DNA of 64,000 bases, taken from NCBI GenBank assembly GCA_019637955.1, contig JAHBUS010000003.1:62001-126000 (forward strand), given 5' to 3'. Position numbers and translations under genes: made by a program. The DNA comes from Pseudobdellovibrionaceae bacterium (GTDB lineage: Bacteria > Bdellovibrionota > Bdellovibrionia > Bdellovibrionales > Bdellovibrionaceae). The notes beneath the pieces are model-generated. The model was not told the DNA's origin, did no database searches, and saw only the letters and a list, made by a program, of their open reading frames with translations. This document shows positions 36,830 through 42,416 of the stretch, piece after piece. Numbering within the stretch: position 1 is the first letter of the stretch; each line of letters begins with the position of its first letter.

Positions 36830-37381
36830 ATGAGAAGACTGGTTTTTATGCTCATTTTAGGTTTGATCGGGTGTTCGAAAGTGGACCCCACCATCGAAAG
36901 CGCCGAAAGCGTTTCGTCGCTCTCGCTGAATAAAACCGTTTTTTCCAGTAAGAATCCGGCGGCGCTCGACCTGGCGTTCTCGGGAACGTGCGACAAACTC
37001 GTGACTTCTTTTCAAGTGGCGGACTCTTCGGCCAACTGGCGCACGCCGCAAAGCATGGGCGGCACGGTCACCAACGAATGTTTGAGCAAAGGATCGTTCA
37101 CCATTCGCATCCCGGCGGTGGGTGCGGCTTTGAGCGCGATCGGCGCTTTGGCCGAAGGCGCGTCGGGCTCGATCTCGGTGCGTGGTCTTTCGGATTACGG
37201 CGCGACCTCGCAAGCTTCGCTGCAAATCACGCATCTCACATCGGCCTACACCATTCGCGGCAAGACCGACGGCACCACCTCGATGGCGCCGGGCTCTTTG
37301 ACGCCGGGTTTGAAGTCAAACCCGATCAAACCACAACGAGTTTTGGCGGGCGGGTACAAGATCCGCGCGGGACTGAGGTAA
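36830..37381 (+). CDS. Lipoprotein in the same operon as the fibre protein
   Basis: 183 residues; MRRLVFMLILGLIGC is a short lipoprotein signal (Cys15). The mature part is beta-rich and Ser/Thr-rich (SSLSLNKTVFSSKNPAALDL, VTSFQVADSSANWRTPQSMG, GSFTIRIPAVGAAL) and ends GGYKIRAGLR. It contains two Cys (GTCDKL, NECLSKG). The 4-base gap to the fibre gene implies coupling. It may anchor, present or assemble the fibre at the outer membrane; that role is inference from position only. Confidence 0.83.
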   Translation: MRRLVFMLILGLIGCSKVDPTIESAESVSSLSLNKTVFSSKNPAALDLAFSGTCDKLVTSFQVADSSANWRTPQSMGGTVTNECLSKGSFTIRIPAVGAALSAIGALAEGASGSISVRGLSDYGATSQASLQITHLTSAYTIRGKTDGTTSMAPGSLTPGLKSNPIKPQRVLAGGYKIRAGLR

Positions 37382-37385
37382 CGAC

Positions 37386-39740
37386 ATGAAACCCATCACG
37401 TTGATTTTCGCGATCCTCGCCGTTTGCACCCTGTTCTCAACCACGAGCTGGGCGGTCGGCGCGCTGTCTTACGAGGGGCAAATCCTAAAGCCCAATGATG
37501 ACCCCTTCGAAAACTCATCGGTGGATTTTACCGTGGAGCTGTGGAACACCCCCGGCACCTGCTTGATTTACAAAACCGTGATCAACCGCGATATGAGCGG
37601 CTCTTCGGGGATGTTCCAGCTCGTGATCGGCTCGATTGCTCCCACGGTCTATGGTCCGACCGATATCACCGTGGCGTTCGCGAACGGAACTTCGCACACG
37701 TGTAAAGCGCCGGAGTCGGGGATTCCCACGTACAATCCCGGTCCCAACGACCGCCGCCGGATCAAAGTTTACTTCTACGACGGGACGACGGACGTCATGG
37801 CCGATGATTTTGAAACCGTGGACGCGCCTTCGGCCGTGACCTCGCAATCGGTGTCGGGCTACCGCGCCGAGAACTTGTTTAAGGTCAACGGTTCGATCGC
37901 GTCGACCTTCAGCGTGACCGCCTTCAATGCGGTCTATGATTTTGCCAATAAACTGGGACTTAACACCAACGTTTCGAGTTTGCCCGCACCCACCACCTTT
38001 GGTGATGCGACCAACTTTCCGGTTCTGGAGATCGACGCCTTGGGGCGGATCACCAATGTGACCTTGCAGCCGATCAGTCTGGGTTCGAGCTCGATCGGTG
38101 ACGGTTCGATCATCACCAATAAACTCGCCGACGGCGCCGTGACGACCGTCAAGCTCGCCGACGGTGCGGTGTCGACTTTGAAAATCGGCAACTTGCAAGT
38201 GACCGACGCGAAGATCGCCAGCGTGGATGCCGGCAAAATGACCGGGATCTTGAGCGTCGAAAATGGCGGCTCCGGCGTGGCCGTGGTTCCCGGTGACGCG
38301 AACAAAGTGTTCGCGGTCAATGCGGCGGGAACGGGCGGATCGGTGCGCTCGCTGATCGCGGGGCCTGGCATCGACATCACTCACGGAGCAGGCTCGATCA
38401 CGATCGGCTCGCAAAATTTGGGAACGGTGACCAGCGTGGGATTGACGATGCCGTCATTCTTCAGCGTGGGAACTCCCACCATCACCAACTCCGGAACTTT
38501 CGCCGTGAGCATGGTGGCGCAAACTCAGAACAAAGTCCTGGCCTCGCCGCCCTCGTCGACGGGCGCGCCGACATTCCGCACACTCGCGGAGAACGACATC
38601 CCGACGCTGTCGGTTGCGGGTAAAGTTTTGGATTCGGCCACCTCGGCGACATCGGTCTCAACGCCGGACACGATTATCAAACGAGATGGAACGAACAAGT
38701 TCTTCGCCGGTTCCGCCAATTTGACGACGACCGAGTTCGTCAACGGGGGCGCCACGGTTTCGATGCACGCTTCCGGAATTCCGTTCACTAGTTACGATCT
38801 ATTTTTGCCGACCTCGGCGGGCACCAACGGGCAGGTTCTTCGAACCGACGGGACGGGAACGCTGAGTTGGATGACGCCCGCGGTGGGAACCGTGACCAGC
38901 GTCAATATGACAACACCGTCAATTCTGACAGTGTCGGGTGCACCGGTGACCTCGTCGGGAACCATCGCGTTGGCCCTGGCCAACACGCAGGCGAAGAAGT
39001 TTTTCGCGGGGCCTTTGCATGGCGCCGGTGACAATCAGCCCACGTTCCGCGTGATGGACCCGCGAGATGTGCCCGCGCTTTCGGGCGTCGTGGTTCTTTC
39101 GGCCTCGATTGGCGACGTCGTGGGCAATCCCTACACGATTGATGGCACCGATGAAAAGAAGTCGTTCTTACTTCCCGGATCGACGGGCGAATACTATTTC
39201 TCAGAAACGCTGCCGGTCGGTTCGCAGATCACGATCAGCAACAAGGTGGGCGCGTTCAACTACACCCGCGTCTACATGAACAACACGGCCTCGACGATCA
39301 GCACGAACGACTCGATCTACATGGCGGCGGGCGCTTCGGTCACCTTGGTGAAGCGCGATGCCAACAGCTGGGAAGTCGTGACCTCGCACAAAATGGGCGC
39401 GATCAACTGCGCACCTTCAGGAACCTATCAGGCCGATCTCGTTGGTCTGCCGGGTCTGCAAACGTCGTTCTGTATCGAGCGCACGGCCAGCACCAGCACC
39501 GATTACGACTCGGCGACCATCACTTGTTTTGATCGCGGCCGCAAGCTCTGCAATATGGATGAGCTTCGTTATGCCCGTGCAAAATCGCGGATCCCATCGT
39601 GCACGAGCACGAGCTACAATGTGTGGGCGCAAAACTCGGTGAGCACCACCGAAGCTTTGCATTACAACTGTAACAACAACAGTTACACGGCGGGCCTTTC
39701 GGTGCGCGCCTCTTCGAACCCGTTCCTCTGCTGCTACTAA
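37386..39740 (+). CDS. Secreted phage-tail-fibre-like protein with Cys-rich tip
   Basis: 784 residues. Signal peptide MKPITLIFAILAVCTLFSTTSWA. Residues 25-150 form a beta-sandwich base that begins GALSYEGQILKPNDDPFENS. From about 190 to 620 it has fibre-shaft repeats like those in phage tail fibres: LADGAVTTVKLADGAV, GTVTSVGLTMPSFFSVGTP, GTVTSVNMTTPSILTVSG, NGQVLRTDGTGTLSWMTP. The last 110 residues are Cys-rich (TITCFDRGRKLCNMDELRYA, YNCNNNS, NPFLCCY) and resemble the small C-type-lectin-like tips in such fibres. Bdellovibrio proteins of this architecture are described as mosaic adhesive trimers used in prey contact. Assignment here rests on motif resemblance. Confidence 0.85.
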   Translation: MKPITLIFAILAVCTLFSTTSWAVGALSYEGQILKPNDDPFENSSVDFTVELWNTPGTCLIYKTVINRDMSGSSGMFQLVIGSIAPTVYGPTDITVAFANGTSHTCKAPESGIPTYNPGPNDRRRIKVYFYDGTTDVMADDFETVDAPSAVTSQSVSGYRAENLFKVNGSIASTFSVTAFNAVYDFANKLGLNTNVSSLPAPTTFGDATNFPVLEIDALGRITNVTLQPISLGSSSIGDGSIITNKLADGAVTTVKLADGAVSTLKIGNLQVTDAKIASVDAGKMTGILSVENGGSGVAVVPGDANKVFAVNAAGTGGSVRSLIAGPGIDITHGAGSITIGSQNLGTVTSVGLTMPSFFSVGTPTITNSGTFAVSMVAQTQNKVLASPPSSTGAPTFRTLAENDIPTLSVAGKVLDSATSATSVSTPDTIIKRDGTNKFFAGSANLTTTEFVNGGATVSMHASGIPFTSYDLFLPTSAGTNGQVLRTDGTGTLSWMTPAVGTVTSVNMTTPSILTVSGAPVTSSGTIALALANTQAKKFFAGPLHGAGDNQPTFRVMDPRDVPALSGVVVLSASIGDVVGNPYTIDGTDEKKSFLLPGSTGEYYFSETLPVGSQITISNKVGAFNYTRVYMNNTASTISTNDSIYMAAGASVTLVKRDANSWEVVTSHKMGAINCAPSGTYQADLVGLPGLQTSFCIERTASTSTDYDSATITCFDRGRKLCNMDELRYARAKSRIPSCTSTSYNVWAQNSVSTTEALHYNCNNNSYTAGLSVRASSNPFLCCY

Positions 39741-39766: not shown

Positions 39767-40306
39767 TTATCGGATTCTTCTGTAACGACTCAGGACCGCG
39801 TCCTCCGAGCAAAGCCGATCTTGCGCTTTGACTTCGGGGTCTCCGGCAATCGGGTGAACTAGAATGCTCAGGATATTTCCTTCACGCGTGTAAACGTTCT
39901 TGCGTGGCGAAACGAGGGCCGGCGGGATTTCGCAGTCGGCAGAACTGTCAGCCGTCTTTTGCGTTTTGACCTGGCTGACGGTGATCTCTTGAGCGTCAAT
40001 GTCCCAGCGGCTGGTCGTCACCAGCCGGCACTTGGTGGGTTTGCCATCACTCTTCTCAATCGAGTTGATCTCCGAAATGGCTTGAGAACCTTCGACTTTG
40101 ATGACGTGAACAACGGCTCCACGGCGAAGCTGAGAGTTGGCGGCGGCCAGTTGGGGAGTCGACTTCATGTCGAAACAGACCATGTCTTCGAGGGCCCAGG
40201 TGCCACCCAAAGGACTTCCGAATTTCTCGGAGGGCGGGAGGCTGGAGCAGCCCGCAAAAATCGCGAATGAGATGACGGTTAGAAGGCCTTGCAAAGATGT
40301 TTTCAT
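39767..40306 (-). CDS. Lipoprotein of unknown function
   Basis: The ATG at 40306 gives 179 residues with lipobox IFAGC (Cys20). The mature region (SPLGGTWALEDMVCFDMKST, GAVVHVIKVEGSQAISEI, SRWDIDAQEITVSQV, NILSILVHPIAGDPEV, AVLSRYRRI) has the length and pattern of a small lipocalin-like barrel opening with GTW; that reading is tentative. It is convergent with the fibre gene, 26 bases away. Confidence 0.78.
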   Translation of the reverse strand: MKTSLQGLLTVISFAIFAGCSSLPPSEKFGSPLGGTWALEDMVCFDMKSTPQLAAANSQLRRGAVVHVIKVEGSQAISEINSIEKSDGKPTKCRLVTTSRWDIDAQEITVSQVKTQKTADSSADCEIPPALVSPRKNVYTREGNILSILVHPIAGDPEVKAQDRLCSEDAVLSRYRRIR

Positions 40307-40367
40307 GGCCAAATCGTATCAGCTTACCGGCTCGCGCTCAAACACGTAAGTCGTTTTCCCGAAGCTC

Positions 40368-40874
40368 CTAGATCTGGTCGGGGATCAAGTCTCTGCATTC
40401 AAAGTAGGACTTCCCCGGTAAGGTCTGGATAAAGTACGTGTTCACTCCCGATAGCGTGATGGACCCAACGGTCAATTCAAGATTCTCGGCCAAGTAGAGC
40501 TTGCAGTCTTTGTCGGGGTACGCAAAATGGGCCAAGGTTCTCGTCACCAAGACTTTGAGTTTTCCGCCCTGCTTTTCGATCTCAGCCTGGATGGGCTTCA
40601 TCGCTTCATGGCAAGGTGTTGCTCCGCTTTGGTTCGTAAAATAAGTGGTGATGCCCGGCGAATGCTTGAAGTTGTCTCCAAACTCAGCAGGGATGGAGTG
40701 CGCATTCAGTGACAAGGTCGTAAAGAGATAGCCGCCATCGCCAAGAGTGCAGTGAAAGGCCGTGAGCGGGTTTTGAACTTCGACCATCTCGCTTTTGACC
40801 AGGACTGTCGACTGACCCGCATGGGCCTGGAGAAATCCAAGGACTAAAAAGAGGAACAGAACTTTTGCTTTCAT
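40368..40874 (-). CDS. Small exported protein of unknown function
   Basis: 168 residues; MKAKVLFLFLVLGFLQAHA is a signal peptide cut before GQSTV. The mature domain has four Cys (AFHCTL, ATPCHEA, DKDCKLY, FECRDL), enough for two disulfides, and beta-strands such as GGYLFTTLSLNAHSI, KLKVLVTRTLAHFAYP and ELTVGSITLSGVNTYFI. Not recognised. The 208-base gap upstream (40875-41082) holds no gene I can support. Confidence 0.8.
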   Translation of the reverse strand: MKAKVLFLFLVLGFLQAHAGQSTVLVKSEMVEVQNPLTAFHCTLGDGGYLFTTLSLNAHSIPAEFGDNFKHSPGITTYFTNQSGATPCHEAMKPIQAEIEKQGGKLKVLVTRTLAHFAYPDKDCKLYLAENLELTVGSITLSGVNTYFIQTLPGKSYFECRDLIPDQI

Positions 40875-41082
40875 GACACGGTCTCCTGACTTGCCTAGTG
40901 CTTAATAGGCTTCCAGACACTTGGCAAATTGGCCGCGCCATGGGCTGTGATAGATAAAATGAATGGCCCGGTTTAGAAGAAAAGGGAATAGCGGGTTTGA
41001 TCCTCGGGGCTTGCCTGCGGCTTCGCGCTCGCGCCCGCTTAGACAGCTCTGGCCTTCCAGGCCTACGCTTACTAGTCCAAGA

Positions 41083-41649
41083 TTACTTGGACTCCAGATC
41101 AGATTTGAGGGCTTTACCGATTTCTTTCATGAAGATCGCGTTCGGAACATAAGTCCTGTAGGTGTCTGTCGCCTTGTCCTCGAGTTCAAACCATTTGCCC
41201 AAGTAAAAGAGCCAAACACGCTTTTGAATCACGATCTCCTTGTCGAGAAGAACCGTCCCGTTCGATTTCGTGACTGTGACTTGATGGGAGATGTCCTCTG
41301 AGAACGGAATCAATGTCAGCGTTGCAATTGTCAGTAAGCCTTTAACGTAGGTCCATGCGATGTTTTTCTGCGTCAGACTGATGGTGATCTTATAGTTGTC
41401 GACAGGGTTTGGGCAATTCGTGAGAAACCCTAAGTTTTTTAAATCGAAATAGGTCTGACTTTCGTTCACAAATCCTCTGATCGGCCTGATTTCGCCATCG
41501 AGTTCAAGAGATTTGCGCTCAATCGTCACGCCAATACACTTTGGACTTTCGAGTCTTGGGATCTCATCTTTATTGAACAGGCCGTCGGGCGGAAGTGTCA
41601 CGCAGCCGACAAGATAGAATGGGGTGACCATAGCTAGAACTATCTTCAC
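41083..41649 (-). CDS. Lipoprotein, last gene of a small-exported-protein operon
   Basis: The GTG at 41649 is chosen: AAGGA precedes it and it overlaps the upstream stop as GTGA. 188 residues, lipobox FYLVGC (Cys16 in this reading). The mature part has FNKDEIPRLESPKCIGVTIE, a hydrophobic stretch NIAWTYVKGLLTIATLTLIP (about 110-130) that may be a second membrane contact, and a C-terminal amphipathic helix. Such lipoproteins with an internal hydrophobic hairpin occur in surface-polysaccharide and secretion loci, but I do not recognise this one. Confidence 0.75.
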   Translation of the reverse strand: MKIVLAMVTPFYLVGCVTLPPDGLFNKDEIPRLESPKCIGVTIERKSLELDGEIRPIRGFVNESQTYFDLKNLGFLTNCPNPVDNYKITISLTQKNIAWTYVKGLLTIATLTLIPFSEDISHQVTVTKSNGTVLLDKEIVIQKRVWLFYLGKWFELEDKATDTYRTYVPNAIFMKEIGKALKSDLESK

Positions 41650-42416
41650 AATGGGTCCTTGTTGGGGTAGCACTCCGCTTCCGGAAAAATAACCTGAAAC
41701 TTCGATTTCTCAATTTCCTCAAGGCTAAAGGTCTTGTCTCTGCCTTTGATGCTGAACTTGTTCGTAGCATCCTTCACAACAACGCCGGTAATGAGACCGA
41801 CCGAATCCGGAGCGACTTTTTCCGGTTGGGGAGGTTCACTCTGGATTGAGATCAAGGACTTCACTTTTACGAGCGGGTAGCCAGCATCGAATCCCTTGCA
41901 AGCGACTTGAAGCGAAATCACACAAGTGTCATCGTCATTTCGGCATATGAACCCCAGTTCGGGCCCTTCAGTCTGTTCCGACTTGCAACGCATATATTTG
42001 CCAAGATCTGTTTCAATGATCTTCTTCGCCTCGAGTGTCACCTTTCGGCTGCTGCTCTCAAAGTTCGGACCGAACACCTCGTTTTTGTTTTTGATCAGAT
42101 CATTGGCAAGATCGCGGGTGTAGAAGTTGCGATTGCAGCCGAGAGCGCGGACAAATTCGACTAAATGTGGGCCGGGAATTCCAGACTCAACTTCCGTCCT
42201 TATCCATGTCCGACGGCTGTAAAAATAAAACCCAGTCTCGAATCTCAAGTCATCAATCAGTGCGCAATCGCCAATCTGCAAAAGACCCATCGGGTAGGCA
42301 ACCCATCCGTTGAACGGTGTTGCTGCCGCGTTTTTGCAAAGGAAATGGTTGTAAGCGAGGGCCGGCGCGAAGGCGCCTAATGCTGAAATGAAAAGTAGTG
42401 CTCGGACGGGTTTCAC
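41646..42416 (-). CDS. Exported protein of unknown function
   Basis: 256 residues; signal peptide MKPVRALLFISALGAFAPALA cut before YNHFLCK. Seven or more Cys follow (LCKNAA, GDCALID, LGCNRNF, MRCKSE, ICRNDDDTC, VACKGF, AECYPN). It also has helical TRDLANDLIKNKNEVFG. The C-terminal region VGLITGVVVKDATNKFSIKG, EIEKSKFQVIFPE is beta-rich. It is more AT-rich than the core genome. Not recognised. Its stop overlaps the following lipoprotein start. Confidence 0.78.
   Translation of the reverse strand: MKPVRALLFISALGAFAPALAYNHFLCKNAAATPFNGWVAYPMGLLQIGDCALIDDLRFETGFYFYSRRTWIRTEVESGIPGPHLVEFVRALGCNRNFYTRDLANDLIKNKNEVFGPNFESSSRKVTLEAKKIIETDLGKYMRCKSEQTEGPELGFICRNDDDTCVISLQVACKGFDAGYPLVKVKSLISIQSEPPQPEKVAPDSVGLITGVVVKDATNKFSIKGRDKTFSLEEIEKSKFQVIFPEAECYPNKDPL

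Follow-up and report, generated by a model that had tools for sequence, protein, structure and literature searches.

A mosaic adhesive trimer fibre gene with a predicted Bd2740-type lectin tip and a probable lipoprotein partner in the family Bdellovibrionaceae

The window, a stretch of 64,000 nucleotides from the genome of a Pseudobdellovibrionaceae bacterium, carries a gene for a long fibre-like protein and, directly upstream, a gene for a lipoprotein, which raises the question of what the fibre is and whether the lipoprotein belongs to it. For the mosaic adhesive trimers (MATs) of Bdellovibrio, the surface element of the predator that holds the conserved fibre base awaits identification, as stated in the Discussion of Caulton et al. 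2024 (PMC10769870).

The fibre gene (37386..39740; all features are on the plus strand unless noted) starts with ATG and is a frame of 784 codons encoding 784 aa. Residues 1-23 (37386..37454) resemble a signal peptide, judged by eye from the sequence. The MAT N-terminal domain occupies residues 19-165 (37440..37880), where NF053851 (Bdello_MAT_N, NCBIfam) matches with an E-value of 4.2e-24 and 85.2 bits against a cut-off of 60, in line with the first-pass annotation, which had taken the protein for a Bdellovibrio MAT adhesin. The shaft (residues 166-668; 37881..39389) contains tail-fibre-like stretches, with matches to PHROG tail fibres at E 9.4e-5 and 1.3e-3, and a repeated unit of about 85 residues. 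The two copies of this unit found by internal alignment, residues 336-420 (38391..38645) and 491-574 (38856..39107), align with a BLOSUM62 score of 128, whereas 1000 shuffles gave 60 at most, which bears out the shaft repeats noticed earlier. The tip domain follows at residues 669-784 (39390..39737). A Pfam scan of the fibre gave no match, hence no S74 peptidase match. Judged from its sequence, the protein almost certainly belongs to the MAT superfamily: the shaft is predicted to be beta-rich, and the C-terminus would be, through its Bd2740-type tip, of the variable adhesive or S74 kind that marks the superfamily. It represents a new member of an established class.

The tip contains 8 of the 11 cysteines of the fibre, with RGRKLCNMDEL at residue 717 and NPFLCCY at residue 778 as the C-terminus; the first-pass annotation had given "eight or so" cysteines and both motifs for the C-terminal domain. 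In a single-sequence search of the PDB, residues 694-781 match 8OKS (E 9.6e-4), and 8OKS is also the sole PDB match (E 1.2e-8) of a tip profile that excludes Bd2740 and consists of the window tip and the tips of two relatives. Entry 8OKS is the crystallised trimeric variant C-type lectin formed by residues 518-627 of Bd2740 (PMC10769870). A tip profile containing Bd2740 itself (8OKS E 6.1e-43) is circular and was set aside as evidence. Because 8OKS is matched both by the single sequence and by the Bd2740-free profile, the tip is called Bd2740-type; it is very probably a C-type-lectin domain of this type, as the Cys-rich lectin-like tip claimed at first sight had suggested, with about 27% identity to the Bd2740 tip. 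The tip alignment has invariant FC, C, LC, E, W and CC columns. Among 59 genomes (source genome included) the tip is present in four, and in the three other genomes of the family it forms the C-terminus of fibre-like frames. Bd2740 of B. bacteriovorus HD100 resembles the window fibre in having both a MAT N-terminal domain and an 8-Cys C-type-lectin tip; it differs in its length of 627 aa (PMC10769870) against 784 aa, and the window fibre is paired with a lipoprotein gene. In one genome of the same family (G036) the 8OKS sequence recurs unchanged over the stretch shown, and a MAT of 922 aa is identical over 151 residues to chain 8OJN of Bd3182; B. bacteriovorus itself or a strain very close to it therefore belongs to the family, and the species is not without predatory relatives, a lack of which had been named as an argument against an adhesin.

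Binding of prey glycans would be the expected activity of the tip. It might instead bind a protein receptor, as the tip of the Bordetella phage adhesin Mtd does, and not be a glycan-binding lectin: the window tip is of Bd2740 type, and the Bd2740 tip, according to PMC10769870, has lost its calcium site and has a trimer face that matches only Mtd, a face shared between Mtd-type lectin tips and this tip type. This is rated as rather unlikely, as no diversity-generating set-up was seen in the source genome. A search of that genome for a second copy of the tip DNA found none, and its sole reverse transcriptase lies on another contig, with none beside the tip; with the tip DNA single-copy and the reverse transcriptase elsewhere, nothing points to diversification in the manner of Mtd. 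A diversity-generating retroelement was considered for the source genome and not found.

The upstream gene (36830..37381) encodes a predicted outer-membrane-type lipoprotein of 183 aa and is a candidate for a partner or anchor of the fibre. Its frame runs from the ATG at 36830 to the stop codon at 37379-37381, which leaves a gap of 4 bases to the ATG of the fibre gene, as had been reported at the outset. By pattern match the lipobox LIGC lies at residues 12-15, with Cys15 as the lipidation site and serine at +2, and under the +2 residue rule of lipoprotein sorting this would be an outer-membrane protein. Residues 30-139 (36917..37246) form an Ig-like beta domain in an AlphaFold2 model, in which blocks of residues 31-140 reach pLDDT 76-91; Foldseek returns generic Ig-type folds only, the best at E 2.2e-4, with low TM. 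The C-terminal tail (residues 140-183; 37247..37378), which ends in AGGYKIRAGLR, is unstructured in the single-chain model, with pLDDT below 50. A ribosome-binding-site-like GAGG (37375..37378) lies within the last codons of the lipoprotein gene, 7 bases before the fibre ATG. No family was assigned to the lipoprotein at curated cut-off in Pfam or NCBIfam, and none from the PDB.

The lone paralogue of the lipoprotein in the source genome, at C13:82740, overlaps the start of another MAT gene by 4 bases. An initial search showed relatives to be present in 8 of the 59 genomes (source genome included), and a profile built from 8 members gave 37 matches in 22 of the 59. These comprise 15 stand-alone lipoproteins (8 of them rows of the profile, and that of G033 almost the same as a row), 20 matches that form the N-terminal part of a long protein and 2 cut by contig ends. 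Directly downstream of 13 of the 15 stand-alone lipoproteins, on the same strand, lies a MAT or MAT-like gene; 11 of these pairs overlap by 4 bases, one has a gap of 4 (the pair in the window) and one a gap of 83, with the MAT start at L086 and L092 placed inside a longer frame. Of the remaining two lipoproteins, one is divergent from a MAT (G050) and the other is at a contig end (G004). Among the 13 partner fibres NF053851 passes its cut-off in 8, matches below it in 4 (two at about 1e-9, one at 0.0017 and one with the match displaced to residue 404) and has no match in 1 (G028). A separate scan of named genomes gave 5 loci, all Bdellovibrio by title, with the 4-base overlap to a MAT in 5 of 5; one of them (L116) repeats the lipoprotein of G030, a member of the 59 genomes. 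Since MAT_N matches sum to 297 over the 59 genomes, or only about 5 per genome, the pairing, which recurs in more than one genus, lies far beyond chance. In all likelihood, the lipoprotein is a functional partner of the fibre.

In B. bacteriovorus the partner fibre is the S74 MAT Bd3182, whose gene is overlapped by 4 bases by the gene for a relative of the window lipoprotein. The partners differ in their C-termini: the window fibre ends in the lectin tip, the MAT beside the C13 paralogue has no tip, and Bd3182 ends in the crystallised fibre segment and the S74 chaperone (PMC10769870). As the partners differ at the far end and share the base, the pairing follows the base of the fibre and not its tip, and the role of the lipoprotein should therefore concern the base. 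The C13 MAT (L022 4274-6022; C13:83273-85021) consists of base and shaft, and the frame after it starts at its stop codon (ATGATG) and appears by eye to encode an exported repeat protein-like product, possibly a beta-propeller; it is possible that the tip of this MAT is supplied as a separate protein.

The tail of the lipoprotein goes with the MAT-linked form, since the profile match reaches position 167-196 in all 15 stand-alone lipoproteins and stops by 162 in all 20 long proteins; among the six stand-alone members that are neither rows nor near-copies of rows, it extends to at least 167 in every one. The long proteins continue beyond their lipidated Ig part with other surface modules, namely Ig, cadherin-like, GLUG and SPRY (5 scanned, 4 with domains). 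In G040 (L047, L048) the Ig-like part is the lipidated N-terminus of proteins of 688-1463 aa, three of which are in tandem.

MAT_N matches were found in 51 of the 59 genomes (source genome included) and in none of 14 control genomes. The source genome has 8, of which 7 are above the cut-off; the eighth, a MAT-like gene on contig C1 (E 7.2e-7), is below it and gave no match by hmmscan. Four of the eight genes (on C1, C2, C4 and C14) are located close to the end of a contig, as though the assembly had broken at MAT repeats. A tight upstream lipoprotein gene is present at 9 of 37 MAT loci, namely 3 of the 8 in the source genome and 6 of 29 best hits of relatives; most MATs therefore share a lipoprotein in trans or need none. 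Bdellovibrio genomes have about 20 MATs each versus one or two such lipoproteins, a disproportion that, like the low share of loci with a tight lipoprotein gene, tells against the tether proposed below.

Three of the 9 tight upstream lipoproteins are small proteins of about 100 aa, and a profile of these three gave 21 matches in 20 of the 59 genomes. When counted without L130 (fused, 999 aa) and L135 (no lipobox), the small lipoprotein is directly beside a MAT, upstream or downstream, in 13 of 19 cases, or in 10 of 16 without the three seeds. Apart from a lipid anchor, a linker and a tail, these small lipoproteins contain hardly anything. Tandem MAT genes in G036 and G024 have the gene for the small lipoprotein directly 3' of them (L143 11020-11370 and L144 9151-9444, respectively); the product is a tailed lipoprotein of about 97 aa with the C-terminus YKVYSSVQGAIVSN, which is similar to the MAT base in its first strand. 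The tails of the Ig-type and the small family may be related: their profile-profile comparison scored 18.0 (HH probability 8%), whereas none of 30 column shuffles exceeded 9.1 and an Ig control reached 7.9. A third lipoprotein family, unrelated in sequence to the window lipoprotein, is found upstream of the MAT-like gene of C1 (L028 3760-6413; C1:760759-763412); its relative at L075 (E 4e-26) adjoins a MAT of a different genome.

How fibre and lipoprotein might work together can be proposed as follows. The 784-residue protein would be exported and, by analogy with known MATs, would form a trimer with a conserved base and a beta-rich shaft, the Bd2740-type C-type-lectin tip facing outward. The lipid would place the upstream lipoprotein in the outer membrane, the Ig-like domain would serve as a stand-off from the membrane, and the flexible tail would most likely grip the conserved MAT base and so tether the fibre. 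That the gene pair is a coupled unit of this kind, a prey-contact fibre together with a membrane partner that tethers its base, is favoured on balance. For the narrower statement that it is the tail of the lipoprotein that tethers the base at the outer membrane, the chances are put at slightly under even. The first-pass annotation had named the lipoprotein as a possible anchor; its role as a partner has strong genomic support from the pairing of 13 of 15, and anchoring itself would be a further step. More tentatively, the two tailed families (Ig domain and tail, or tail alone) might be the missing surface anchor of MATs at the outer membrane, one per fibre or shared, and the tail might perhaps act as an added beta strand that mimics the first strand of the base. 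A matrix of this first strand, trained on MATs without a paired lipoprotein, gave shuffle p < 0.05 in 13 of 18 rows for tails of the small family, in 7 of 18 for Ig-type tails (including the distant L078) and a p of 0.66 for the tail of the window lipoprotein; the rows are akin to one another and the idea is post hoc, formed after some of them had been seen. Strand imitation by the tails is thus a suggestion from sequence. The model of the MAT base, with a mean pLDDT of 42.6, is too poor for use.

A different role for the lipoprotein, that of an assembly or export helper (a periplasmic chaperone or an outer-membrane translocation factor) absent from the finished MAT fibre, would fit the tight 4-base coupling, as for a cognate chaperone, and the fact that most MATs are without a dedicated lipoprotein. 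The many generic Ig matches in Foldseek also include the pilus chaperones PapD and SfaE and a FimA-FimD chaperone complex; however, these chaperone matches are no better than those to titin or antibody domains. The tail-only lipoproteins, which adjoin MATs with about 100 aa and no Ig domain, are better explained by a tether, and the Ig part is reused as a lipidated N-terminus in long surface proteins. A helper is accordingly considered unlikely, at odds of roughly one in four. A tethering partner at the fibre base is preferred also to a chance neighbour with some unrelated task in the envelope, next to which the fibre alone would matter: the lipoprotein on its own shows no known family, and 5 of the 8 MATs in the source genome are without a lipoprotein gene directly upstream, but the pairing counts among stand-alone relatives, found despite the small number of MAT_N matches per genome, bring this explanation close to refutation and leave it very improbable. 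Least probable is a prophage tail fibre, since the shaft segments shared with phage tail fibres (PHROG 28766 and 35419) stand in a gene with cellular neighbours (GTP cyclohydrolase I, tRNA methyltransferase, cupin) and no phage structural gene around it, the protein has a signal-peptide-like start and a MAT N-domain, a single IMG/VR scan of viral contigs gave no relative of the tip, and the fibre is, unlike phage fibres and Mtd, chromosomal, predicted to be exported and built on a MAT base, with no diversity-generating element found. Just downstream of the fibre gene and convergent with it, several small frames for exported or lipoprotein-like products lie on the minus strand (39767-42416); three of them were scanned and gave no Pfam match.

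As for the tethering partner, the word lipoprotein is absent from the main text of PMC10769870, the available parts of PMC12034629 and PMC11003981 name no lipoprotein partner, and none for MATs is described in the freely accessible journal articles searched. Within the reach of these searches, pairing with a lipoprotein is a feature of the MAT system that has not been described before. Bdellovibrio recognises its prey with MAT fibres, whose base-holding part, sought by their discoverers, may be the lipoprotein. The window fibre indicates that the Bd2740-type lectin tip is also employed in further genera of the family. The pairing turns the question of anchoring into a two-gene test, and B. bacteriovorus itself offers, in a tractable strain, candidate anchors that can be deleted: the gene overlapping bd3182, which encodes one of the MATs with a crystal structure, and the small lipoprotein gene beside two further MATs.
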